DNA of 64,000 nucleotides from Flavobacterium psychrophilum DSM 3660 = ATCC 49418 (GTDB taxonomy: Bacteria; Bacteroidota; Bacteroidia; Flavobacteriales; Flavobacteriaceae), in contig NZ_MUHE01000015.1 in NCBI RefSeq assembly GCF_002217405.1, forward strand, positions 1 to 64,000, read 5' to 3'. A program made the translations under genes and the position numbers. Positions within the stretch are counted from its first letter, which is position 1. Each line of letters starts with the position of its first letter. This document shows positions 43,698 to 56,279 of this stretch, piece after piece. The notes below the pieces were generated by a model. The model did no database searches, was not told the origin of the DNA, and saw nothing but the letters and a program-made list of their open reading frames with translations.

Positions 43698-44845
43698 ATG
43701 AAAAAAATAATTTTAATTGCTCTTTCTGCCTTTGTAATGTCATGTACAGGAATTATTGGAAATGGGTTTAAAATTTCGGGAGAAATTAAAGGATTAGCAG
43801 ATGGTACAAATGTTTTCTTAGAAAAACAAAATAGTTCTGCCGCAGCAGGTGGCCCAATAACCATAGATACTGTACAAGTGAAGAATGGTAAATTTACTTT
43901 TGAAGGTAAAGCTGAAGAACCAGAAATACACAGCATACGTTTCGACAAAACCCAAGGTGGATTTATAGTTGTGGTTGAAAAAGGAAATATTAATGTTATA
44001 ATAAACAAAGATAGCATACAAAATGCAAAAGTTTCTGGAACATTTAATAACGACGAATTAGTGAAATATAACGCTGAAATGATGAAAATTCAGAAAAGAA
44101 TGATGGCATTTCAAAACACAAACATGTCAGTTATGCAGACTGCATCAGAAAAAAAGGATACAGTTGTAATAAACAAACTTAGAAAAGAATATACTGCATT
44201 TCAGGAAGAATTTACAACAACAAATTACAAATATATCGAAAACAATCCTAAATCATTTCTTTCCGTTTTACTTGTTGAAGGTATGTTTAATGATCCACAA
44301 GCTAATTTTGAAAAAATAAAAAAATATTACAGTGCTTTAGATGCTGATGTAAAAGCTACAAAACCTGGAAAAAACATTGAAACAAAACTTGACGCAGAAA
44401 AAAAAAATCTAAAAAAATAGATTTATCCATAGGAAAAAGCGCCCCAAATTTTACAGCAAAAAATGCTGATGGAAAATTAGTTTCGCTTAAAGAATCTCTT
44501 GGTAAAGTAACAGTTATAGATTTTTGGGCTTCTTGGTGCGCACCTTGCCGAAAAGAAAATCCAAATATGGTAAGCTTATATAAAGAGTTTCATAGCAAGG
44601 GTTTAAATATTATTGGTGTTTCTTTAGATAAAGAGGCAACCCACTGGAAAGAAGCTATCGCAAAAGATAAACTAACCTGGATAGAAGTTTCTAATTTAAA
44701 AGAATGGAATGATCCTATTGCCCTAATATATAATATAGAAAGCATTCCTACAACTTATATATTAGATGCAAGTGGGAATATTGTTGCAAAAAATCTTATT
44801 GGCAACGAACTAAAAGCTAAAATTACTGAATTATTAGCTAAATAA
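43698..44845 (+). CDS. DUF4369-TlpA-like thiol-disulfide lipoprotein, split by a -1 frameshift
   Basis: Frame 0 (43698-44420) encodes 240 residues: a lipoprotein signal (lipobox FVMSC), a DUF4369 domain (FKISGEIKGLADGTNVFLEK) and a helical linker. It stops at TAG 44418. The -1 frame then gives, without a gap, IDLSIGKSAPNFTAKNADG and a TlpA-type thioredoxin domain with WASWCAPCRKE, up to TAA at 44845. Joined, the product is about 382 residues, the usual length of flavobacterial DUF4369-TlpA proteins. A run of seven A (44411-44417) in phase A-AAA-AAA directly precedes the TAG, and a run of ten A lies at 44398-44407. It may be true recoding, phase variation, a pseudogene or a sequencing error. 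Confidence 0.8.
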
Positions 44846-45551: not shown

Positions 45552-46178
45552 ATGAACAAGAATCTTAAAAAACTATTTCCATCGTTTTCAAATACACTAA
45601 TAGAAGATATAAATGCTAATGCAATCGATCAATCTTTTGTAGTAGGAGATGTTGTAATGAGAACAGGTCAGTACATCAAAAATACGATATTGGTTTTAAG
45701 CGGGAGCATAAAAATTTATCGTGAAGACGCTGATGGTGGTGAGTTTTTCATGTATTATTTGCAGCCAGGGCAAGCTTGTGCAATTTCTATGATTTGTGCT
45801 ACAAAAAATGAACAAAGCCAGATAATGGCAAAAGTTGTTGAAGACACAGAATTAGTTATGGTACCCTTAACCCTTATGAACAAGTGGATGATGGAACACC
45901 GCAGTTGGTACGAATTTGTTATTGATACATACAGAAGTCGTTTTGAAGAAGTTTTAGAAGTAGTAAACAGTATTGCCTTTAAAGCAATGGATGAACGTTT
46001 GGAGTTTTATTTAAAACGCCATAAAGATACTTGCGGTTGCCTAAATTTAAAATTATCGCATCAGGAAATTGCTACCGATTTAAATACCTCACGAGAAGTT
46101 ATTTCTCGATTATTAAAAAAATTAGAACAACGTGGAGTATTAAAATTACAACGAAATCATATCGAATTTTTAAAATAA
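45552..46178 (+). CDS. Crp/Fnr-family transcriptional regulator
   Basis: A 208-residue regulator with an N-terminal cyclic-nucleotide-type beta-roll (about residues 25-120) and a C-terminal winged helix. The recognition helix reads TSREVISRLLKKLEQRG, placing Arg181-Glu182 and Ser185-Arg186; E-x-x-S-R is the Fnr signature and the R-E start is Crp-like. It lacks the N-terminal four-Cys cluster of Fnr, so it probably does not bind a 4Fe-4S cluster there; DNR/NnrR-like haem sensing or other input is possible. Palindromes fitting this family lie upstream of nearby operons. It is monocistronic. Confidence 0.9.
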   Translation: MNKNLKKLFPSFSNTLIEDINANAIDQSFVVGDVVMRTGQYIKNTILVLSGSIKIYREDADGGEFFMYYLQPGQACAISMICATKNEQSQIMAKVVEDTELVMVPLTLMNKWMMEHRSWYEFVIDTYRSRFEEVLEVVNSIAFKAMDERLEFYLKRHKDTCGCLNLKLSHQEIATDLNTSREVISRLLKKLEQRGVLKLQRNHIEFLK

Positions 46179-46266: not shown

Positions 46267-46280
46267 GTGATAATTATCAC
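46267..46280. promoter_or_regulatory. Crp/Fnr-type palindrome upstream of tetR
   Basis: GTGATAATTATCAC is a perfect 14-base palindrome, 61 bases before the tetR start codon. With its flanks it reads TGTGA-N6-TCACT. A closely similar site precedes ccoN and the peroxiredoxin gene. Confidence 0.65.
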
Positions 46281-46313
46281 TTTACAAAAAAATATAATAT
46301 TGCAAATTTGCAG

Positions 46314-46327
46314 AGTGAGTATTCACT
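46314..46327. promoter_or_regulatory. Putative TetR operator
   Basis: AGTGAGTATTCACT has inverted AGTGA/TCACT arms and lies 14 bases before the tetR start codon, the usual place and style for autoregulatory TetR operators. Confidence 0.55.
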
Positions 46328-46341
46328 AACAAGTATATAAA

Positions 46342-46920
46342 ATGCAAATTTCAGAGAAACAACAAGCCATCATTGAAGCCTCAGGAAAAATTTTAACTTC
46401 CTTTGGCACAAGCGGATTTACAATAAAAAAATTGGCATCTGCAATGCAATTTTCAGAAAGTGCCATTTACAGACATTTCAAAAGCAAAGAAGAAATAATA
46501 ATCACAATGCTTACTTTTCTGGCAGAAAATATCGATCAGCGATTATCACAAAACTACATTTCAAATCAAAATAGCCAAACAAAATTTGTGCAATTATTTC
46601 AGAACCAATTTATCTTTTTCAAAGCAAATCCGCACTTTTTAGTAGCCTTACTTTCTGATGGTTTATGGGAAGAAAGCACAAAAATTAATGAAGCCATATT
46701 AAATTTGATGCGCATCAAAATAAAACATTTAAAACCAATTATTATTGAAGGCCAAAACAAAGGCCTATTTAAAAACACAATTTCAGCAGATGACATAACA
46801 CACATTGCCATGGGAACTTTTAGATTACAAATGTACAAATGGCGCATTGCAAATTTTAAATTTGATATAGAAACCCAAGGAAATAAAACAATCCAATCAT
46901 TACTAACAATTATAAAATGA
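46342..46920 (+). CDS. TetR/AcrR-family transcriptional regulator
   Basis: A 192-residue TetR protein. The N-terminal helix-turn-helix region reads FTIKKLASAMQFSESAIYRHFKSKEEI, typical of the family; the C-terminal ligand-binding part is mostly helical. Its stop overlaps the next start (ATGA, 4 bases), so it is cotranscribed with the efflux adaptor and likely represses the whole operon until a drug or metabolite binds. An operator-like repeat lies just upstream. Confidence 0.93.
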   Translation: MQISEKQQAIIEASGKILTSFGTSGFTIKKLASAMQFSESAIYRHFKSKEEIIITMLTFLAENIDQRLSQNYISNQNSQTKFVQLFQNQFIFFKANPHFLVALLSDGLWEESTKINEAILNLMRIKIKHLKPIIIEGQNKGLFKNTISADDITHIAMGTFRLQMYKWRIANFKFDIETQGNKTIQSLLTIIK

Positions 46921-48047
46921 AAGAAAAAAAATATTTCCGAAACAAAAATAGCACAAAAATATTAAACAAAATAAGCCCTGTAATCGCACTTCTATCCCTA
47001 TTTGCATGTGGCAAAAAAACAGAACAAACAAAAGTAGAACGCAAGAACATTACCGAAATGATTTTTGCCTCAGGAACACTAAAAGCAGACAAGGAATACA
47101 ACCTGATGTCACAAACCGAAGGTTACATTACCAAAATTAATTTTAATGAAGGCGACGAAGTACAAACAGGAACAATACTAGCTATAATAAACAATCCTCA
47201 AAGTGCAACAAACACAAATAGCAGCTCAAAATTATTAAAAATCGCAAAAAACAATAGCACTTACAAAGCACCACTATTACTACAAACCAAAGCAAATCTT
47301 GAAGTAGCCAAGGCAAAATTACAACAAGACGAACTACAAGAAGCACGCTACAAAAGACTCATAGAGGCCAACGCCACGTCAAAACTAGAATACGAGAATA
47401 AAATTATTGCTACAAAAACATCAAAAGCAACACTTTTATCATTAGCCCAACAATATCAAAACCTCCTAATTCAAGCCAATGAGCAAGTAATCATCCTAAA
47501 CCAACAACTCGAAAACAGCCAAACAATTCAGGATTTTAACCAAGTAAAAGCATTAGCAAACGGCAAAATTTACAAACAAAAAAAGCAAGTTGGCGATTAT
47601 GTACGCAAAGGCGATATTATTGCAATACTAGCCAATAACAAAAAAATTTATGCCAACCTGAACATAGACGAAACCAACATAGCAAAAATAAAACTTAACC
47701 AAGAAATCATTATCAAACTAAATGTAAATGCCCTTAAAAGATACAAAGCCAAAGTTTCAGAAATCCTACCCACCTTCGATGAGCAATCGCAATCCTTCAT
47801 AGTCAAAGCCATTTTTACCAAACCAATAGATTTTGCCATATCAGGAACACAACTAGAAGCCAATATTCTAGTGAGCCAATGCAAAAACACATTAGTAATT
47901 CCAAGAAGCTATCTAGGCTATGGAAATAAAGTTTTAAACACCAATAAAAAACAAATAAATGTACAAACAGGCATTATCTCCTCAAATTACGTACAAATTT
48001 TACAAGGTCTAAAAGAAAACCAAACCATTCTAAAAGAATTAGATTAG
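46917..48047 (+). CDS. Efflux periplasmic adaptor (MacA/HlyD-like lipoprotein)
   Basis: A 376-residue periplasmic adaptor. The N-terminus has a basic segment, a hydrophobic helix and a lipobox LFAC near residue 35. A lipoyl-like half motif (GYITKINFNEGDEVQTGTIL), a long coiled-coil hairpin (residues ~100-195) with EARYKRLIEANATSKLEYE, and beta domains follow. It partners with the ABC permease and ATPase encoded downstream. It overlaps tetR by 4 bases. Confidence 0.92.
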   Translation: MKEKKYFRNKNSTKILNKISPVIALLSLFACGKKTEQTKVERKNITEMIFASGTLKADKEYNLMSQTEGYITKINFNEGDEVQTGTILAIINNPQSATNTNSSSKLLKIAKNNSTYKAPLLLQTKANLEVAKAKLQQDELQEARYKRLIEANATSKLEYENKIIATKTSKATLLSLAQQYQNLLIQANEQVIILNQQLENSQTIQDFNQVKALANGKIYKQKKQVGDYVRKGDIIAILANNKKIYANLNIDETNIAKIKLNQEIIIKLNVNALKRYKAKVSEILPTFDEQSQSFIVKAIFTKPIDFAISGTQLEANILVSQCKNTLVIPRSYLGYGNKVLNTNKKQINVQTGIISSNYVQILQGLKENQTILKELD

Positions 48048-48055
48048 AAAAACTA

Positions 48056-48157
48056 GGGCGTTACCCCGAAGAAAAATCGGGGTCAGGCTTTCCGTTACAA
48101 TCTTTTTGGCGAAGAAAAATCGCCAAAAAGGATTTTCACTACAATCCTTAACGCAAA
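48056..48157. repeat. Dispersed intergenic repeat upstream of the ABC permease
   Basis: The element matches the copy at 11326-11408 in its start (GGGCGTT), middle (AGGCTTTCCGTTACAATC) and end (GGATTTTCACTACAATCCTTAACGCA). It contains two stem-loops: ACCCCGA/TCGGGGT (48063-48083) and CTTTTTGGCGA/TCGCCAAAAAG (48102-48130). Both have the same 7-base loop AGAAAAA. It starts 9 bases after the adaptor stop and ends about 8 bases before the permease start. Confidence 0.8.
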
Positions 48158-48165
48158 AAAACCAG

Positions 48166-49410
48166 ATGGCTAAAAACTACAACCACAACATTAATGCTCA
48201 AATAGCCTACACCCATTTATTTTCAAAAAAAAAACAAACCTTAGTAGCCGCATTTGGTGTAACAATAGGAATTGCCATTTTCATATTTATGAATTCGCTA
48301 ATGCATGGCTTTGAAGTGTATTCGATCGAAAGTTTATTCAAATCAACACCACATTTACGCATTTACAAAGAAGAAAAAATTAGTCAACCCCTAGTAGCAG
48401 ATTCAGCAAACAATCTAGCAATACTCGCCAACCCAAAAATCACAAAGGAAAACAAGAGACTAATCAATCCCAATTTAATCATCGAAACACTAAAAAAACA
48501 ACCTGGAGTAATTGGCGTAACACCAAATGTTTCGGCAAATGTTTTTTATAACAATGGCGAAGCACAAGTAATAGGCAGAACATCTGGTGTAAATATCGAA
48601 GAGCAAAACACAATGTTTCATCTCGAAAATTATATTGTAGAAGGCAAATACTCCGACTTAAAATCAAACCAAAACGGAATCATCATTGGCGTTAGCATAG
48701 CCCAAAAACTCAACGTACGATTAAACGATAATATTTCGGTAGCCACAGCCTATGGCGTTTCAAAAGTAATGAAAGTCGTCGCATTATTAAGAACAGGCGT
48801 TTCCAATACAGACAAAACCCTATCCTATACAAACATTTCGGCAGCACAACAACTAAACAAGCAAGGCGCAAACTATATTACAGATATATTTGTAAACATT
48901 AAAGATTTCGAAACCGCTAAAAAAGTTTTACCCGAATTCAAACAATTAAGTGGTTACGAGGTCGAAGATTGGGAAACCGCAAACGCATCAGCATCAGCAT
49001 CCAACAAAATTAGAAAAATGATGGCAATGGCAATTTCATTATCAATAATGCTAGTGGCAGGATTTGGTATTTATAATATTCTAAATATGACTATTATCGA
49101 AAAATTAAATGACATTGCAATCCTAAAAGCCATTGGTTTTTCTGGTAAAGATGTGATTAAGATTTTTGTAAAAGAAGCCATGATTATCGGAATAATAGGA
49201 ATTGCATTTGGATTAATTTTAGCCTTAATTTTAGTCAAATTAATGGGTAATATGTGGGTTGGTGGCGATATTGGCTTTTTTCCAATTCGGTTTTTCCCAA
49301 CATTTTTCGCATCAGGAATTGGTCTAGGATTACTAATAACAACCTTATCGGGCTATATTCCTGCAAGAAAAGCAGCAAAATTAGATCCAATAACAATTTT
49401 TAGAAAATGA
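48166..49410 (+). CDS. ABC transporter permease (MacB/FtsX-like)
   Basis: A 414-residue permease. A first transmembrane helix (TLVAAFGVTIGIAIFIFMNSL) is followed by a large periplasmic MacB-PCD domain (to about residue 275) and three C-terminal helices with KAIGFSGKDVIKIF and SGYIPARKAAKLDPI, the FtsX hallmark. ATG 48166 was chosen over an in-frame ATG at 48106 because the extra 20 residues would be encoded by the intergenic repeat. It overlaps the ATPase gene by 4 bases. Confidence 0.92.
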   Translation: MAKNYNHNINAQIAYTHLFSKKKQTLVAAFGVTIGIAIFIFMNSLMHGFEVYSIESLFKSTPHLRIYKEEKISQPLVADSANNLAILANPKITKENKRLINPNLIIETLKKQPGVIGVTPNVSANVFYNNGEAQVIGRTSGVNIEEQNTMFHLENYIVEGKYSDLKSNQNGIIIGVSIAQKLNVRLNDNISVATAYGVSKVMKVVALLRTGVSNTDKTLSYTNISAAQQLNKQGANYITDIFVNIKDFETAKKVLPEFKQLSGYEVEDWETANASASASNKIRKMMAMAISLSIMLVAGFGIYNILNMTIIEKLNDIAILKAIGFSGKDVIKIFVKEAMIIGIIGIAFGLILALILVKLMGNMWVGGDIGFFPIRFFPTFFASGIGLGLLITTLSGYIPARKAAKLDPITIFRK

Positions 49411-50087
49411 TACAAAAAGAACTTTTATTACAAGCAAAAAATGTAAGTAAATATTTTTATGAACCTGAAAAATTTAAGGTTCTAAATAATATTTCATTCG
49501 ATATACATAAGGGCGAATTTGTAACTATGGTAGGAAAATCGGGTTCAGGAAAATCAACTTTACTATACCTTCTTTCTACAATGGACACAGATTATGAAGG
49601 AAATATTTTTTTTGATAGCGAAAATTTAACCCACAAAACAAAAGAAGAATTAGCCGCAATACGCAACGAGAAAATAGGTTTTGTTTTTCAGTTTCATTAT
49701 TTATTACCTGAATTCTCGAGTTTAAAAAATGTCATGATACCAGCATTAAAACTAGGCAAATATTCTAAACCAGAAATTGAAGAAAGAGCCTATTCGATTC
49801 TAACAAAATTAGATTTAAAAGACCAAGCACTTAAACCTGCTAACAAACTCTCAGGAGGACAACAACAACGTGTAGCCATTGCAAGAGCTTTAATAAATGA
49901 TCCCAAAATTATTATGGGAGATGAGCCAACAGGCAATTTAGATAGTAAAAATGCAGCTATTGTTTTCGATTTATTTAAGCAACTTACAACCCAATTCGAC
50001 CAAACTGTTCTTGCCGTAACCCACGATAATGATTTTGCCAAAGCTAGTGATCGCATTATTGAAATGGCTGATGGGATAATTTTATAA
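49407..50087 (+). CDS. ABC transporter ATPase (MacB/LolD type)
   Basis: A 226-residue nucleotide-binding subunit. Walker A VGKSGSGKSTLLY, Q-loop FVFQFHYLLPEFSS, signature LSGGQQQRVAIARAL, Walker B IIMGDEPTGNLDS and the H-loop VTHDNDFA are all present. It energises the neighbouring permease for macrolide- or lipoprotein-type export. Last gene of the tetR operon. Confidence 0.95.
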   Translation: MIQKELLLQAKNVSKYFYEPEKFKVLNNISFDIHKGEFVTMVGKSGSGKSTLLYLLSTMDTDYEGNIFFDSENLTHKTKEELAAIRNEKIGFVFQFHYLLPEFSSLKNVMIPALKLGKYSKPEIEERAYSILTKLDLKDQALKPANKLSGGQQQRVAIARALINDPKIIMGDEPTGNLDSKNAAIVFDLFKQLTTQFDQTVLAVTHDNDFAKASDRIIEMADGIIL

Positions 50088-50091
50088 ACAA

Positions 50092-50103
50092 TGATATTTA
50101 TCA
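50092..50103. promoter_or_regulatory. Crp/Fnr-type palindrome upstream of ccoN
   Basis: TGATATTTATCA has perfect TGATA/TATCA arms around a TT centre. It lies 107 bases before the oxidase start codon and matches the sites at 46267 and 56266. Confidence 0.6.
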
Positions 50104-50209
50104 GTGTTTTTTATTTAAAGTAAAAAGTACCATCAATAACCCTTTTATTGCCATTGGTAATGTGTCTTTTTGTTTCAATTTTGCCTAATCATTTAAAAAC
50201 AGGTCAATT

Positions 50210-52378
50210 ATGAAACTCAAAAACAAAAATCTCATTTCTAAACCTCAAAAAAAGTTTACATTACTGGGACTAATGGCATTTTTTTATCCGTTAATTGCAT
50301 CTGCACAAACAGATAATGGAGTTAGCTTTTTTCCTAATAAATCGATAGGTTTTATAGAAATTTTAACAATATTTGTAATGATTATTGTGGGCTTTGTACT
50401 TTTTTTAGTCTTAAAAATAATTACAAAAGCAAATGATAATCTAGAAGATACAAATTTAGGCAATGATAAAAAATTTAAAAAATATTTAGTAAATCTAAAT
50501 TCTTGGCAAATTGAAGTATTAAAAAAGAAGCGAAATCAAATAAATAAAATTATTTCTATCCTTATTTTAGGTTTCATTTCATTAGCACCACAATTTACAT
50601 TTGCGCAAACAGCTCCAGCAAAAAGAGAGGGTATTTTTTCGCAACCAGGTGTACTAATTACGTTAGTTCTAATATTTATACCTTTATTTCTTGCTTTACT
50701 TTATTTGGCTACAAAAGTGTATAAGGGTTTTAATGATTATTTTTATTTTCAAAAAACAAAAGAAGCAGAAGATTTTGCTGCTTATATTTCGTTAGCAGAC
50801 AACATTCCAACCAATGCAAAGCTAGAGAGAATTAGAAAAAAATTGAATTATAGTATAACTTCAAATGAATTATCTGGTAATAAAAAAGCTAATGATGCAA
50901 AGGGATTATTAAAAAACATAAGTTCAGAAACTAATTATCGCTTTTTTGCTTCTAAAAGACCAGCTATAAAACGTCCTAAAATAGATCCTGAATTAACAAA
51001 ATTAGTATTATGGTTTTTAGGAACCGCAGTTTTTTGGCTCCTAATAGGAAGTAGTATTGGAGAATATGTTGGCATCAAATTTATTGCCCCTGATGCCGAT
51101 ACTTATAGTTGGCTAAGCATAGGAAGACTACGTGCGGTACATACCAACTTAGTATTTTGGGCATGGTCTACTATTGGAATTATGGGTTTGGGATATTATA
51201 TTGTTCCTATGGTAAGTAATACCCCTTTAAACAATATAAAAAATGGCTGGAAGGCTCTAATTGCGGTAAATTTGGCAATGTTCGTTGGTGCAATTACACT
51301 TATGGCAGGAATAAATAATGCTGGTGGCGAATACCGAGAAATTATTTGGCCCATAATGGCTGTTTGGGCTTATGGCTTGCTACTAACTGTTACTAATTTT
51401 ATAAAAACTATTGCAAAAAGAACAACTCACGAAATTTATATTTCTAATTGGTTTATAGTTGCTTCTTATATATTTATACTTATAGTTGCATTTCTTTCCT
51501 ACATTCCGATGGGACAAGATGGCATTGGAGAAACTATTGTGCAAGGATATTATATGCATCAAGCAGTTGGAATGTGGTTTATGTTTTCTATGCTAGGTAT
51601 TTTATATTATATACTACCCCAACAAGTAAACAAACCTATTTATTCCTATAGTTTAGGCGTTTTAGCTTTTTGGTCACAAATTCTTTTTTATACCACCATA
51701 GGCACGCATCATTTTGTTTTTAGTTCTTTGCCGTGGTGGTTACAAACTGTTGCTATTATTGGAAGTGTTGGCATGTTAATTCCAGTAACATCTGGAACTA
51801 TAAATTATTTAATGACATTTAAAGGTTCTTGGAGTAAAGTTAGCAATAGTTATTCGTTGCCTTTCCTTTTAGTAGGTGTTGTTTACTATTTTACAGGTTC
51901 ATTTCAAGGAACTGCTGAAGCATTTAGATCTACTAATTTAATTTGGCATTTTACAGATTTTACCATTGCCCATTCGCATATAACAATGTATGGCATTATA
52001 ACTTTTCTATTATTTGGAAGTATCTATGCTATCGTACCAAGACTTACAGGACAAGAACCACCACAACTAGGGGTTGGAGCACATTTCTGGTTGGCATTAA
52101 TCGGATTACAATTTTACACCATACCACTAATGATTGGTGGCACACTAAAAGGATTAATGTGGGCAGAAGGAAAACCATTTATAGACAGTGTAGTTATGAT
52201 GGGACCTTATTGGCTTTGGAGAGCAATTGGCGGTTCATTAATGTGGCTTTCTCATATTGTATTAGTGTATAACATGTATAAAATGATAAAACCAAATAAT
52301 GAAATTGATGTTAAAGAAAAAGCCTTTGAAATAATAAATCAAAATCTGGAACTCAATTCTGTTGAATCTAAACAATAA
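50210..52378 (+). CDS. ccoN: Variant cbb3-type cytochrome oxidase subunit I with N-terminal extension
   Basis: A 722-residue haem-copper oxidase core subunit. Residues ~1-265 are an extension with two similar hydrophobic units, each preceded by an F/SAQT-type cleavage-like site. The C-type oxidase core follows. Haem and copper ligands are visible: His311 (AVHTNLVF), His450 (YMHQAVGM), His500-His501, and His588/His590 (TIAHSHIT). Tyr494, six residues before His500 as in cbb3 oxidases, supports oxygen reduction rather than NO reduction. The Glu of the usual FEGP motif is Gln566. It should pump or consume protons in the inner membrane under low oxygen. Confidence 0.88.
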   Translation: MKLKNKNLISKPQKKFTLLGLMAFFYPLIASAQTDNGVSFFPNKSIGFIEILTIFVMIIVGFVLFLVLKIITKANDNLEDTNLGNDKKFKKYLVNLNSWQIEVLKKKRNQINKIISILILGFISLAPQFTFAQTAPAKREGIFSQPGVLITLVLIFIPLFLALLYLATKVYKGFNDYFYFQKTKEAEDFAAYISLADNIPTNAKLERIRKKLNYSITSNELSGNKKANDAKGLLKNISSETNYRFFASKRPAIKRPKIDPELTKLVLWFLGTAVFWLLIGSSIGEYVGIKFIAPDADTYSWLSIGRLRAVHTNLVFWAWSTIGIMGLGYYIVPMVSNTPLNNIKNGWKALIAVNLAMFVGAITLMAGINNAGGEYREIIWPIMAVWAYGLLLTVTNFIKTIAKRTTHEIYISNWFIVASYIFILIVAFLSYIPMGQDGIGETIVQGYYMHQAVGMWFMFSMLGILYYILPQQVNKPIYSYSLGVLAFWSQILFYTTIGTHHFVFSSLPWWLQTVAIIGSVGMLIPVTSGTINYLMTFKGSWSKVSNSYSLPFLLVGVVYYFTGSFQGTAEAFRSTNLIWHFTDFTIAHSHITMYGIITFLLFGSIYAIVPRLTGQEPPQLGVGAHFWLALIGLQFYTIPLMIGGTLKGLMWAEGKPFIDSVVMMGPYWLWRAIGGSLMWLSHIVLVYNMYKMIKPNNEIDVKEKAFEIINQNLELNSVESKQ

Positions 52379-52384
52379 ATACCA

Positions 52385-53398
52385 ATGAATATATTTAACG
52401 ACCACAAAAAATTATACCTAATAGCAACCCTTTTCTTTGGTACATTAACACTTTTTGTAGCAGTATTCCCATCAGTACATAATGAAATGATAAGCCAACC
52501 ATTATACGGAAGTATTCCCCTTACAGCAGAGCAAGAAGCAGGAAGACAAATATATATTAGCAACGGCTGTGTGAGTTGCCATACTCAACAAGTTAGAGAT
52601 GTTGACATGGACAAGATCTGGGGCGATAGACCTAATGTTGCTTCAGATTACGCATTAAGCACACGAAAAAGTATTTGGCAAAGCGCAGGAACACTAATGG
52701 GAACAGAAAGAACAGGGCCAGATTTATCTAACATTGGAGTAAGACAACCCAGCCAAGACTGGCACTTGGTACACTTATACAATCCAAGAATTGTAATGCC
52801 ACAATCAATCATGGCGCCATTCCCATGGTTGTTTGAAATTAAGGATAAAGCAACAAAAGACGACATCAAAGTAAATGTACCTGAAGAATTTATGCATGGC
52901 CAAAAAGGCATTGTTGTAGCAACAAAAGACGCATTAAACTTAGTGGCTTATTTACAATCCTTAAAACAAGTAAAACTTCCAGACGGTATGCCTAGTCCTG
53001 AATTTCTTTACAAAAAAGCAAAAACACAAGCCAATACTGCCCCTAGCGACACAAAAACTGAATTAAATGGTAGCGATTTATATGCTGCAAATTGCATGGC
53101 CTGTCACCAGCAAAATGGAGAAGGACTAAATGGCGCTTTTCCAGCCCTTAAAGCAAGCAAAATTGTATTAGATGATAATCCCGAAATTATGGTAGGAATC
53201 ATTATGAATGGTTATAACCCAAGAGAAGAATACGGGGTAATGCCTCCTGTGGGCATAAATGCAAATTTATCTGCCCAAGAAATAGCCGCAATCATGAACC
53301 ACGAAAAATCAAGTTGGGGAAATAATGCTAAAAAAGTAAGCCCAGAGCAAGTTCAAAAACTAATGGATCTAGCCAAATTAAGCGCTCCTAAACAATAA
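52385..53398 (+). CDS. ccoO: CcoO-like cytochrome c fused to a CcoP-like cytochrome c domain
   Basis: A 337-residue membrane-anchored cytochrome. An N-terminal helix (residues ~10-30) is followed by a CcoO-type haem c domain with GCVSCHTQQVRD near residue 60, LMGTERTGPDLSNIG and an axial Met region (PRIVMPQSIM). A second haem c domain begins near residue 228 with ANCMACHQQNGEGLNGAFPAL and has its Met in GVMPPVG. This second domain may replace CcoP, which is missing. It starts 6 bases after ccoN. Confidence 0.9.
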   Translation: MNIFNDHKKLYLIATLFFGTLTLFVAVFPSVHNEMISQPLYGSIPLTAEQEAGRQIYISNGCVSCHTQQVRDVDMDKIWGDRPNVASDYALSTRKSIWQSAGTLMGTERTGPDLSNIGVRQPSQDWHLVHLYNPRIVMPQSIMAPFPWLFEIKDKATKDDIKVNVPEEFMHGQKGIVVATKDALNLVAYLQSLKQVKLPDGMPSPEFLYKKAKTQANTAPSDTKTELNGSDLYAANCMACHQQNGEGLNGAFPALKASKIVLDDNPEIMVGIIMNGYNPREEYGVMPPVGINANLSAQEIAAIMNHEKSSWGNNAKKVSPEQVQKLMDLAKLSAPKQ

Positions 53399-53403
53399 GC
53401 AAA

Positions 53404-53664
53404 ATGGAAAAAAAATTATACGCAATACTTCTTGCAACAATATCTATAACAACTTATGCCTGCCCAATGTGCGAAAAACAACAACCAAAAGTTTTACGGG
53501 GCATTACTCACGGTGCAGGTCCAGAAAGTAATTTAGATTATGTTATCGTTTGGACAATGGTAATAACCGTTTTAATAACCTTATTTTTTGCATTAAAATA
53601 CCTAATAAAACCAAAAGAAAACCAAACTAATCACATAAAAAGAACCATTATAAATTTTGAATAA
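53404..53664 (+). CDS. Small membrane protein with a CPMC motif in the oxidase operon
   Basis: An 86-residue protein. It has a signal-like N-terminus ending in TYACPMCEKQQPK, so the CxxC pair lies just outside the membrane, and one transmembrane helix near residues 45-67 (WTMVITVLITLFFALKYL). CxxC at this place could bind copper or haem. It lies 5 bases after the cytochrome gene. It is not a standard CcoQ. Function unknown. Confidence 0.7.
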   Translation: MEKKLYAILLATISITTYACPMCEKQQPKVLRGITHGAGPESNLDYVIVWTMVITVLITLFFALKYLIKPKENQTNHIKRTIINFE

Positions 53665-53666
53665 TT

Positions 53667-54065
53667 ATGGATAGTAAAAGCAAAGTGATTATATTTGTTG
53701 ATAATGAAATTCAACCAATAGGCAAATTTGAAGCGCCAGTAAATTTTGAATTAGATACTCATAAACTTCCCGATGGATTGCACCAACTAAAAATAGTAAG
53801 TAAAGACCCAACAGGAAAAGAAGGCATAAAAATTATCCCTTTTATAGTTAGAAACGGACCAGCAATTACCATAGAAGGGCTAAATGATAATGACGTAGTT
53901 GATGGAGTTTTACCACTAATGATTAACGCTTATGGCAAAGGAAATCAAAAACAATTTTTAATAAATGGAAGCGAAACACCCAAAAGCGTACCTTCTTGGT
54001 TATTTGCAGCAATAATTGCATTTGTTGCATGGGCAATTTATTTTACTATAACCTCTTTAGGATAA
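53667..54065 (+). CDS. Anchored Ig-like protein in the oxidase operon
   Basis: A 132-residue protein with an Ig-like beta domain (residues ~5-85; FELDTHKLPDGLHQLKIVS and IIPFIVRNGPAI) and a C-terminal membrane helix (PSWLFAAIIAFVAWAIYF). No signal peptide is seen, so the topology is unclear. It resembles FixH/CcoH-like accessory proteins only loosely. It starts 2 bases after the CPMC gene. Confidence 0.7.
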   Translation: MDSKSKVIIFVDNEIQPIGKFEAPVNFELDTHKLPDGLHQLKIVSKDPTGKEGIKIIPFIVRNGPAITIEGLNDNDVVDGVLPLMINAYGKGNQKQFLINGSETPKSVPSWLFAAIIAFVAWAIYFTITSLG

Positions 54066-54071
54066 CTAATT

Positions 54072-54956
54072 ATGTGCGACATTAAAAACATAAAATGTAG
54101 CGAAGTAACACAAAACGAATTAAAGTTTGCCGTGTACCACACATCAGATTTTTTGCCTTTTATGCAAAAATTAAACATTCCGCACAGGCACAATTATTTT
54201 ATGATTTTGCTTAACGAAAATAATTTTGGCTCTCAATTAATCGATTTTAAAGAATTTGACATAGAACCATTATCTGTAACCTGTTTGCATTATGGTCAAA
54301 TACACCAATGGCTAAATTTCGATAAAATAGAAGGTTACATATTGGTCTTTGAAAGCGATTTTTTTGCGCTTCGGTATCAAAATTATCAATTAAGTGAGTT
54401 TTCATTTCTAACCTGCAGGCACAAACAACCTTACGTAAAAGTTTCAGAAGAAAAATTTCAACATCTCAAATCAATCGTACTTTGGATGTTAAAAGAATGG
54501 AATGATAACCAAACTGATTTTGAAAAAAGTCTGCGTTCATTACTCAATTTAATGCTTTTAGACCTCAATAGACTATTTGAACCTATGCCTAAAAACAAAG
54601 AATTTAGTCAGTCTTTACAACTCATTTGCCATTTTGAGGAATTGATAGACAAACACTACAAACAAAAACATTTTGTAAAAGATTATGCTTCTGTAATGTA
54701 TGTTCGTCCTAATTATCTAAATGCAGTTTGCAATGAGATTACAAATATTTCTGCTGGAGAGTTAATACGAAATAGGATTCTTCTTGAAGCAAAAAGATTG
54801 CTTATACATGAGCAAAAAACAGTTTCTGAAATTGCCTACGAACTAGGTTTTGAAGACAACTCCTATTTTGGTCGTTTCTTCAAAAAATATGAAAATATAA
54901 CCCCCGATGGTTTTAAACGTAAATTTATTAATACTAGTAAATTTTTCCAAATTTAA
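54072..54956 (+). CDS. AraC-family transcriptional regulator
   Basis: A 294-residue regulator. An N-terminal cupin-like sensing half (LNIPHRHNYFMILL) precedes the two helix-turn-helix motifs of an AraC DNA-binding domain (residues ~190-290) with YASVMYVRPNYLNAVC and VSEIAYELGFEDNSYFGRFF. It lies 6 bases after the Ig-like gene and is probably part of the oxidase operon or its own regulator. The ligand is unknown. Confidence 0.9.
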   Translation: MCDIKNIKCSEVTQNELKFAVYHTSDFLPFMQKLNIPHRHNYFMILLNENNFGSQLIDFKEFDIEPLSVTCLHYGQIHQWLNFDKIEGYILVFESDFFALRYQNYQLSEFSFLTCRHKQPYVKVSEEKFQHLKSIVLWMLKEWNDNQTDFEKSLRSLLNLMLLDLNRLFEPMPKNKEFSQSLQLICHFEELIDKHYKQKHFVKDYASVMYVRPNYLNAVCNEITNISAGELIRNRILLEAKRLLIHEQKTVSEIAYELGFEDNSYFGRFFKKYENITPDGFKRKFINTSKFFQI

Positions 54957-55033
54957 TAAAGTAACGAGTGTTACATTACTTACATCAAAAATCTAATTTT
55001 ACAATTAATCTTAATTTGTTCAAAATAAAAAAA

Positions 55034-55435
55034 ATGCTATTATTCCTTAAAAACTTACTGTCTTTTAAATGCCCAAGATGCCATAAAGGCGAACTATTTG
55101 TAAACAAATGGTACAATTTTTCAAAAAGCAATAAAATGGTCGAACGATGTGCTGTATGTAGCCAAAGAACCGAACTAGAACCTGGGTTTTACCAAGGTAC
55201 TGGTTATGTAAGTTACGCTTTAACTGTTGGTTTTTCTATTGTTACTTTTATTATTTGGATACTAATTACTGGATATACTTTCAAAAATAAAGAATTGTTT
55301 TGGTGGTTACCCATTAATATTACAGCTTTATTATTTATGCAACCTTGGTTAATGCGTTTGTCAAGAGTAATTTGGCTAACCGCATTTTATGGTGGTGATG
55401 ATCAATATCATAAAAATAATACTAAAATAAAATAA
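55034..55435 (+). CDS. DUF983 membrane protein
   Basis: A 133-residue protein. The N-terminal zinc-ribbon-like part has CPRCHKGELF and later CAVCSQRTELEPGFYQGTGYVSYA, the hallmark of DUF983. Two transmembrane helices follow. DUF983 genes are often found beside cytochrome oxidase genes, and here the oxidase operon is 1 kb upstream. I chose ATG 55034 because the upstream ATG (54968) adds a low-complexity extension. Confidence 0.88.
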   Translation: MLLFLKNLLSFKCPRCHKGELFVNKWYNFSKSNKMVERCAVCSQRTELEPGFYQGTGYVSYALTVGFSIVTFIIWILITGYTFKNKELFWWLPINITALLFMQPWLMRLSRVIWLTAFYGGDDQYHKNNTKIK

Positions 55436-55509
55436 TCATGCACATTTATTGCCGCTGAGTATTAGTATTTGTTTGCAAATGGTTATTTTTGAAAGTTAAA
55501 CCCTTCTAT

Positions 55510-55546
55510 AAAAAAAGATTGCTCTTTTGAAGCAATCTTTTTTTTT
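55510..55546. terminator. Bidirectional terminator between DUF983 and peroxiredoxin
   Basis: AAAAAAGATTGCT pairs with AGCAATCTTTTTT around a 7-base loop. A and T tracts on the two sides fit termination of both convergent genes. Confidence 0.85.
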
Positions 55547-55556
55547 GTACAATTTA

Positions 55557-56201
55557 TTAAATAGATTTTTTAGCTAAATACCAATCTACCATTTCTAAGT
55601 CGCTACTTTTTCTTTCGGCCAGAGCTTCTATCGTTTTTGGGGCCGGAACAATTACTTTATCACCAGGTTGCCAGTCTAAGGGCATTGCAACTTTGTACTC
55701 ATCAGAAGTTTGAAGTGCTAACAATGCTCTTTTTATTTCTGCCATATTTCTACCTATATTAAGTGGATAATACATCATTAGCCTAACTTTACCTTCTGGA
55801 TCTATAATAAAAACAGCTCTAACTGCTGCTGTTTGGCTTTCGCCAGGTTGTAGCATTCCGTATAATTTAGAGACTTCCATAGAAATATCTGCCACTATTG
55901 GAAAATCAAATAAAATGCCTGTTTTTTCGTTAACTGCATTTACCCAAGCAATGTGAGCATGAATACTATCTATGCTCAAACCCATTAATTTTGTGTTGTT
56001 TTTTGTAAAGAACTCTTTTTCCTTAGCAAAACCACTCATTTCTGTTGTGCATACTGGAGTAAAATCGGCAGGATGCGAAAAAAACACGACCCAACTTCCT
56101 TTATTGTACTCTGAAAATTTTAACATTCCTGTTGTGGTTAGTGCGTCAAAATCTGGAGCCATATCTCCAATTCTAGGCATTAAAAATACTTTATCTTCCA
56201 T
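55557..56201 (-). CDS. Peroxiredoxin (Prx6/1-Cys type)
   Basis: A 214-residue peroxiredoxin that reduces peroxides in the cytosol. The peroxidatic site reads HPADFTPVCTTEM (Cys near residue 45). The long C-terminal part (RNMAEIKRALLALQTSDEYK, PLDWQPGDKVIVP) matches the Prx6 group. The start ATG 56201 was chosen because an upstream ATG at 56279 lies in the palindrome region and adds a hydrophobic tail. A Crp/Fnr-type palindrome lies upstream. Confidence 0.92.
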   Translation of the reverse strand: MEDKVFLMPRIGDMAPDFDALTTTGMLKFSEYNKGSWVVFFSHPADFTPVCTTEMSGFAKEKEFFTKNNTKLMGLSIDSIHAHIAWVNAVNEKTGILFDFPIVADISMEVSKLYGMLQPGESQTAAVRAVFIIDPEGKVRLMMYYPLNIGRNMAEIKRALLALQTSDEYKVAMPLDWQPGDKVIVPAPKTIEALAERKSSDLEMVDWYLAKKSI

Positions 56202-56265
56202 TTTTTTTGGTTTTAAATTTATTGTTTTAATGAAGTAAATGTAGGTTATATAAAAGTATGATTTT

Positions 56266-56279
56266 GTGATATTTATCAC
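56266..56279. promoter_or_regulatory. Crp/Fnr-type palindrome upstream of the peroxiredoxin gene
   Basis: GTGATATTTATCAC has perfect GTGATA/TATCAC arms around a TT centre. It lies 64 bases before the peroxiredoxin start codon. It matches the sites at 46267 and 50092. Confidence 0.65.

Follow-up and report, generated by a model that had tools for sequence, protein, structure and literature searches.

CRP and FNR of Escherichia coli recognize palindromes of the TGTGA and TTGAT types and can act as class II activators, which for Crp/Fnr proteins means from a site centred at -41.5. Among other Crp/Fnr proteins, NtcA of cyanobacteria, with a half-site of the GTA type, serves nitrogen control through 2-oxoglutarate, with which it has been solved in complex, and HcpR of Porphyromonas, a member from the Bacteroidota, is linked to hcp and nitric oxide (NO). 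Here we describe a Crp/Fnr-family protein, predicted to be an activator, that is encoded at positions 45552..46178 (+ strand; 208 amino acids) in the first 64,000 nucleotides of contig NZ_MUHE01000015.1 of Flavobacterium psychrophilum DSM 3660 (the whole stretch analysed, hereafter the window), together with the palindromes that stand before several operons near it. An initial annotation had placed three of these transcription units, namely a tetR-efflux operon, a variant oxidase operon and a peroxiredoxin gene, in a single regulon of that protein, with oxygen or NO as the signal.

The sensing of reactive sulfur has been assigned to other classes of protein. PMC9774590 gives ArsR-, CsoR- and Fis-type proteins as the known persulfide sensors, calls SqrR, BigR and CstR repressors and FisR an activator, and describes their control as cysteine-based and sulfur-responsive. 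In Acinetobacter, persulfidation of a Crp protein has been reported, its effect being unknown (PMC7315123), and a meta-regulon paper puts a Flavobacteriales Crp/Fnr protein, which may or may not belong to the family treated here, in a MalR-like group (PMC8510549). Among the papers listed, titles and the beginnings of abstracts, in a search without most subscription journals, yielded no description of this regulator family or of either operator presented below. Such silence is weak evidence of novelty; within the searchable literature, nothing appears to describe how Bacteroidota regulate their defence against sulfide and persulfide.

Taking the reading as a whole, we consider it likely that the window protein is a class II activator of a reactive-sulfur regulon, and that the palindrome before the oxidase operon belongs more probably to an FNR-like paralog. 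The proposal of one regulon is only half right, for it merged two look-alike operators: the tetR-efflux operon and the peroxiredoxin gene stay together under one of them, and the oxidase operon, with a site that resembles the other type and no suitably placed promoter box, more probably does not.

Results

A Crp/Fnr protein with an invariant pair of cysteines

Both Pfam domains of the superfamily, cNMP_binding (37.1 bits) and HTH_Crp_2 (44.2 bits), are found above cut-off in the regulator, and its predicted fold agrees. The R-E-x-x-S-R helix noted by the initial annotation lies within a recognition helix that reads T-S-R-E-V-I-S-R, and the lack of the Fe-S cysteines of Fnr, also noted there, is borne out: the N-terminal [4Fe-4S] cysteine cluster is absent and the first cysteine is residue 76, so the protein is not FNR proper. 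Nor is it CRP proper, scoring 41.1 bits with PRK11753 against a cut-off of 266, and its Crp/Fnr domains and fold set it apart from the ArsR, CsoR and Fis types of SqrR, CstR and FisR. It shares with the E. coli proteins the two-domain fold, the type of palindrome and the centre at -41.5 described below, but differs from them in the missing cysteines, in the low CRP score and in its predicted signal, which would be a thiol rather than cAMP or an Fe-S cluster. Its nearest named relative is that of F. swingsii (88%).

The sensor domain carries Cys76 and Cys82, a pair kept without exception by the 109 regulators compared (110 loci, of which L221 dropped out). Both cysteines of this C-x5-C pair are retained in 3dv8, a Crp/Fnr protein of Eubacterium rectale that is the nearest solved relative by sequence and has the helix R-E-V-I-T-R; yet its identity in the fold comparison is 25%, and its record is titled a putative regulator. 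The HcpR structure 9day is among the fold matches and is not among the 14 sequence matches of the regulator (E<=0.001), the inclusion of 9day in the searched library being unchecked. In the predicted model (mean predicted local distance difference test score, pLDDT, 85; predicted template modelling score, pTM, 0.64), Cys76 stands just ahead of a short helix (residues 78-84) that contains Cys82, and this region is the least certain part of the model. Presumably it is also where Crp proteins bind cyclic nucleotide, a placement that we take over from CRP. Together, the invariant cysteines and the target genes suggest a thiol switch, with Cys76 and Cys82 as a putative sensing pair for thiols or persulfide.

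The class A operator and its position

Enumeration of palindromes in the promoters of genes linked to the regulator yielded the pattern GTRAY-N4-RTYAC, hereafter class A. Among the promoters of genes for TauE, beta-lactamase-fold, peroxiredoxin and YeeE proteins, it occurs in 72 of 97 from Flavobacterium (shuffles, 0.30), in 22 of 28 from other Flavobacteriaceae (shuffles, 0.06) and in 52 of 71 from Sphingobacteriales and others (shuffles, 0.12). In no group did the reversed pattern stand before any of these genes, and among other promoters at these loci class A occurred in 5/336 and 6/296 cases. Upstream regions shorter than 45 bases were excluded from the promoter counts. Locus L106 (genome G127) was left out of the Flavobacterium promoter, matrix and helix/operator counts because marker proteins had been taken from G127; the sites before TauE and the beta-lactamase-fold gene at this locus match class A by eye.

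The sigma-A -7 box of F. psychrophilum is given as TAnnTTTG, at -12 to -5, in a study on this species (PMC9723704). With at most one mismatch allowed (background, 1.6% per position), such a box starts exactly 22 nucleotides past the class A palindrome at 70 of 72 Flavobacterium sites and at 19 of 22 and 50 of 52 in the other two groups. This spacing, combined with the published position of the box, makes the palindrome span -48 to -35 with its centre at -41.5, and class A sites would therefore occupy the position of a class II activator.

In the window, class A sites precede the tetR-efflux operon (GTGATAATTATCAC, 46267..46280, + strand) and the peroxiredoxin gene (GTGATAAATATCAC, 56266..56279, - strand). 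Scored with matrices that were trained on relatives only (training 5th percentiles 15.1 for A and 18.8 for B, the latter standing for the second operator), the former reaches 19.6 bits with A and 11.3 with B, and the latter 16.0 and 6.0. Probable -7 boxes begin 22 nucleotides past both palindromes, CAAATTTG (46303..46310, +; one mismatch to TANNTTTG) for tetR and TACATTTA (56236..56243, -; one mismatch) for peroxiredoxin. Judged from sequence conservation and position, class A is very probably the operator of the window regulator at these two sites. The stricter form GTRAYANNTRTYAC is present four times in the own genome, always in promoter position: before tetR, the peroxiredoxin gene, a beta-lactamase-fold/rhodanese operon and an operon for TolC, a membrane fusion protein (MFP) and an RND protein. 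All four copies have a -7 box at +22 (at most one mismatch).

The peroxiredoxin gene (55557..56198, - strand; Pfam AhpC-TSA and 1-cysPrx_C) most likely starts at the ATG at 56198, since its orthologs share this N-terminus; given that start, the palindrome lies upstream of the gene, where it had first been placed, and not within it. GTRAY-N4-RTYAC-type sites also precede its relatives in loci L160, L198, L276 and L277, and a site with one mismatch the relative in L282. No class A site was seen directly upstream in L224, where the gene follows that for the beta-lactamase-fold protein (identity to the window peroxiredoxin: L160, 91%; L224, 79%; L198, 51%). The initial list of sites overlooked a further one, GTAACGAGTGTTAC (54961..54974, + strand), before a gene at 55034..55435 (+) whose product we take to be of the DUF983 type. 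Its score of 10.0 bits with A (-10.8 with B) falls under the class A training 5th percentile; a class A site precedes the same gene in G378, G265, G255 and G447.

The bare core of the palindromes is a poorer guide than the class A pattern. The letters and coordinates of the three palindromes first noted, GTGATAATTATCAC (46267-46280), TGATATTTATCA (50092-50103) and GTGATATTTATCAC (56266-56279), agree with the window, and their core, TGATANNTATCA, occurs three times in its 64 kb against 0.21 expected, a number that 1 of 100 shuffles also gave; locally, the palindromes are above chance. Genome-wide, the excess is only modest, with 14 copies against 4 of the reversed pattern, 8 of the 14 being intergenic and 6 within genes (intergenic gaps make up about 12% of the window). 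The relaxed TGATN4ATCA is found at control frequency (71 versus 67), and as a probe of conservation the exact core gave a single copy in 9 of 80 named loci and none in the G127 stretch. This patchy conservation was resolved by the degenerate GTRAY-N4-RTYAC, of which TGATANNTATCA is merely the most symmetrical form; the information sits in the bases that flank the core, not in the core itself. Neither matrix gives any of the six coding copies as much as 6 bits, and on both strands they are without a -7 box at +22. Fur-type sites were considered and rejected, the centre of the palindrome being even.

That short A+T-rich palindromes without function account for all of this is scarcely credible: genome counts close to those of reversed controls would suit such an explanation, yet the positions are conserved, the spacing is fixed at 22 nucleotides and the operators are clade-specific. 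A chance origin is very unlikely for the sites at 46267 and 56266 and still possible for that at 50091.

Recognition helix and operator

The recognition helix reads REV[IV]SR in 48 of 48 Flavobacterium regulators and in 31 of 31 called regulators of the Sphingobacteriales set, and RVV[IV]SR in the 28 best loci of other Flavobacteriaceae (28/28). At base 3 of the half-site, exact sites of the Val type have A 42 times versus G twice, whereas those of the Glu type from Sphingobacteriales and others have G 91 times versus A 13 times. On these counts, a predicted recognition helix with Glu is paired with GTGAC operators, and one with Val with GTAAC operators. The helix of NtcA, STRVTVTR, has Val at the same position as the Val-type relatives; the window protein differs from it in having Glu there. 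Flavobacterium operators before TauE, beta-lactamase-fold and peroxiredoxin genes (L155-L202) are composed of one GTGAY and one GTAAY half in 62 of 69 cases.

The same correspondence bears on which protein reads class A. Three proteins of the genome have HTH_Crp_2 above cut-off, the window regulator and two others of 226 and 225 amino acids on contigs C16 and C26, and further cNMP-domain frames of 181 and 640 amino acids lie on C1 and C7, so candidates are at hand. Nonetheless, reading by the C26 or C16 paralog, or by the short C1 protein, seems to us quite improbable: the operator changes together with the helix of the window regulator, the C16 protein has class B sites of its own, and 70 of 80 loci have the regulator gene close to class A targets.

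Gene neighbourhood and a probable link to sulfur

Named genomes were scanned with the window regulator, and the best 80 of 138 loci were compared, 48 grouping with Flavobacterium (some of them metagenome-assembled genomes titled otherwise) and 32 coming from Sphingobacteriales and others. The 70 loci just mentioned, 44 of the 48 and 26 of the 32, have a gene for TauE or for a beta-lactamase-fold/rhodanese protein within 8 kb of the regulator. Counted by type over the 80 loci, beta-lactamase-fold (65) and TauE (64) genes lead, followed by those for rhodanese (33) and YeeE (24); CydA (9), SQR-like (7), RND (7), DUF983-type (5) and peroxiredoxin (3) genes are rarer. A frequent order is regulator, TauE, beta-lactamase-fold, rhodanese and YeeE/YedE. 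The linked proteins bear the Pfam names TauE, Lactamase_B with two rhodanese domains, Pyr_redox_2 and carbonic anhydrase. Among NCBIfam models, type III SQR is the best for the SQR-like flavoprotein, and bifunctional sulfur transferase/dioxygenase is one of several for the beta-lactamase-fold protein, in both cases below cut-off.

Two genomes join these genes with the operons of the window. G265 has, in order, TauE, SQR-like and TetR genes, each with a class A site, further genes, and those for MFP, permease and ABC protein; then an SQR-like gene with a class-B-like site, variant CcoN, CcoO/P, AraC, a DUF983-type gene with a class A site, CydA and CydB; and, further along, peroxiredoxin and beta-lactamase-fold genes, both with class A sites. 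The arrangement in G255 is the same, its stretch starting at TetR, with class A before DUF983-cydAB, peroxiredoxin and the beta-lactamase-fold gene. From the order of this supercluster, the operons grouped by the initial annotation do belong together as neighbours, apparently under two regulators.

The most-linked genes look to be of the sulfide and persulfide type, which argues against the original view of the regulator as an oxygen or NO switch and for sulfur as its probable signal. A variant of our reading would retain the regulator and the class A regulon and make NO, peroxide or another ligand the signal, the sulfur genes being one output. Peroxiredoxin and two efflux systems among the targets, cytochrome bd in relatives, and variant oxidase homologues that elsewhere lie mostly beside an Rrf2 regulator, a globin or a ScdA/RIC-type protein would all be consistent with it. 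Since the genes most often linked are nevertheless those for beta-lactamase-fold/rhodanese, TauE, rhodanese and YeeE/YedE proteins, we regard this variant as possible and doubtful.

A second operator, class B, and the FNR-like paralog

The paralog on C16 has the helix TATESCIR and an N-terminal C-x2-C. Its gene shares a promoter with a divergent neighbour that we take, from position and sequence, to be ccoI (the profile match is P-type ATPase), and this promoter contains the palindrome ATGAYANNTRTCAT, hereafter class B, exactly in 26 of 28 cases (shuffles, 0.02) and within one mismatch in 28 of 28. The 28 include the own genome and derive from 36 paralog matches, 30 of them with loci, after L263 and L265 were dropped (gene not called). 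On the ccoI side a -7 box follows at +22 in 25 of 26; the paralog's own side has no +22 peak of such boxes. The six exact class B sites of the own genome lie in the paralog/ccoI gap and before ccoS-ccoNO, hemN, a cytochrome c gene, the gene for a PAS protein and a 48-codon open reading frame (ORF) on C12; at five of the six, one strand has a -7 box at +22, the site of the PAS protein having none.

Cysteines 4, 7, 53, 106, 132 and 193 of the paralog (L119, 3111-3791) are kept in 28 of 28 orthologs, and the protein might sense oxygen in an unusual way, through Fe-S or thiols. The 48-codon ORF (L124, 5436-5582) resembles a small membrane protein; the class B site directly ahead of it has its -7 box at +22.

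The variant oxidase and its site

The palindrome before the variant oxidase operon, ATGATATTTATCAG (50091..50104, + strand), is class-B-like, with 13.9 bits for B and 4.5 for A, and the bases at its flanks are A, as opposed to the G of class A sites. Of the 8 closest genomes, 6 have a palindrome within one mismatch of class B less than 1,500 bases ahead of the oxidase gene (in G265 and G255 it lies before the SQR-like gene that precedes the oxidase), as do 2 of 11 genomes that are more distant. None of the six (0/6) has a -7 box at +22. A conserved element beside the palindrome, AAGTAAAAAGTACCAT (50118..50133, +), present in 6 of 6 aligned genomes, may be the site of another regulator.

The first gene of the operon (50210..52378, +) encodes a variant CcoN in which COX1 begins at residue 264, behind an N-terminal extension of about 260 residues, and which scores 245 bits with the CcoN model TIGR00780 (cut-off, 583). 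In alignment, its His450, Tyr494, His500/501 and His588/590 are identical to those of the own CcoNO, positions with catalytic roles in oxidases of this type. The next gene (52385..53398, +) encodes, by Pfam, FixO/CcoO fused to a cytochrome c domain.

Could the window protein alone control all three operons, reading the oxidase site as a weakened version of its operator and responding to low oxygen or NO? The same TGATA-N2-TATCA core stands three times within 10 kb, the variant oxidase shares the supercluster of the sulfur genes in G265 and G255, and related Crp/Fnr proteins can share sites. However, flanks and matrix scores separate the sites, the oxidase site is without the -7 box in all six genomes, and the paralog has ATGAYANNTRTCAT promoters of its own. 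We judge control of all three by the window protein unlikely, and the FNR-like paralog to be the more probable reader of the oxidase site.

Among 398 genomes of the genus, 21 encode the variant CcoN, the own included, as do 11 of 249 genomes of the family outside the genus. Regions from 18 of the 20 other Flavobacterium genomes that have it were compared (G306 and G323 were left out). It keeps two quite different kinds of genomic company, sulfide-type or NO-type genes: 7 of the 11 more distant Flavobacterium loci have an Rrf2, globin, hemerythrin or ScdA/RIC-type gene nearby, and 10 of 12 loci in 11 other genera an Rrf2-type gene (by eye; one confirmed by Pfam). Given this company, a role as NO reductase was considered and not adopted, as the Tyr and His positions of the oxidase type are kept.

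Other features of the window

The efflux operon consists, on the + strand, of the gene for the TetR-family regulator (46342..46920; Pfam TetR_N) followed by those for the membrane fusion protein (46917..48047; Pfam HlyD_D23), an FtsX-type ABC permease (48106..49410; LolC/E- and MacB-like models, all below cut-off) and an ABC ATPase (49407..50087; an ORF with translation, named from its sequence). At 43698-44845, two ORFs resemble opposite ends of a single thioredoxin-type lipoprotein, whose gene may be frameshifted.

Discussion

On the reading that we favour, the regulator at 45552 would be a Crp/Fnr class II activator of a regulon for defence against sulfide, persulfide and thiosulfate in many Bacteroidota. 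Its dimer would bind GTRAY-N4-RTYAC centred at -41.5 and aid RNA polymerase at the adjoining -7 box, switching on in the window the tetR-ABC efflux operon (site 46267), the peroxiredoxin gene (56266) and probably the DUF983-type gene (54961). Its targets on contig C67 would be the beta-lactamase-fold/rhodanese operon and the TolC-MFP-RND efflux operon. Persulfide or other sulfane sulfur, acting on Cys76 and Cys82, would be the likely signal. The variant oxidase operon would more likely be under the FNR-like paralog by way of the second, similar site, and the paralog may also serve ccoI, ccoS-ccoNO, hemN and a cytochrome c. The sequences themselves show the operators with their positions, the linkage of the genes, the correspondence between helix and operator and the invariant cysteines; binding, activation, the sulfur signal and the reader of the oxidase site are predictions drawn from them.

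Several observations weigh against this reading. The exact class A pattern is not clearly enriched genome-wide (4 versus 5 for the reversed control), and neither is class B (6 versus 4); the case for both operators rests on position and conservation, not on genome frequency, and the compared promoters, being drawn from related species, are not independent. G265 and G255 each have one class A match within a gene. The regulator gene itself has no class A site in 48 Flavobacterium loci, and has one in 5 of 26 and 1 of 29 in the other two groups; 10 of the 80 named loci, one of them without a called regulator and some on short contigs, have neither a TauE nor a beta-lactamase-fold gene nearby. The DUF983 site in the window has no -7 box at +22, and a perfect -7-like box is seen at +23 on 1 of the 12 strands of the coding core copies (L009). 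As to the second operator, the oxidase site scores below the class B training 5th percentile, and G611 and G447, two of the eight closest genomes, show no class B site upstream of the oxidase. Base 3 is mixed among the Glu-type sites of Flavobacterium (G 76 versus A 62), and the Val type forms one fully supported group on a long branch in the tree, so that it represents a single evolutionary event in which other residues changed too. Lastly, because the NCBIfam scores of the SQR-like and beta-lactamase-fold proteins are below cut-off, their chemistry is only inferred.

If the likeness to SqrR/BigR, CstR and FisR in cysteine-based control holds, the window regulator would differ from them in belonging to Crp/Fnr and, in its site geometry, in being placed as an activator. 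Extended to the whole family, the proposal is tentative, and we hold it with somewhat less than even confidence: a Crp/Fnr family of the Bacteroidota may sense persulfide through C-x5-C and drive sulfide oxidation, persulfide removal, peroxiredoxin and drug-type efflux, with a Glu/Val exchange shifting the operator between GTGAC and GTAAC.

Low oxygen raises cbb3 oxidase and heme synthesis in F. psychrophilum, as stated in PMC9723704, in whose main text 'Crp' and 'Fnr' both have 0 occurrences; the class B operator would fit this reported rise. A Crp/Fnr activator responding to persulfide would, if true, add a class of protein to the known sensors and tie sulfur stress to efflux, and the paired operators would represent a recognition code open to direct testing.

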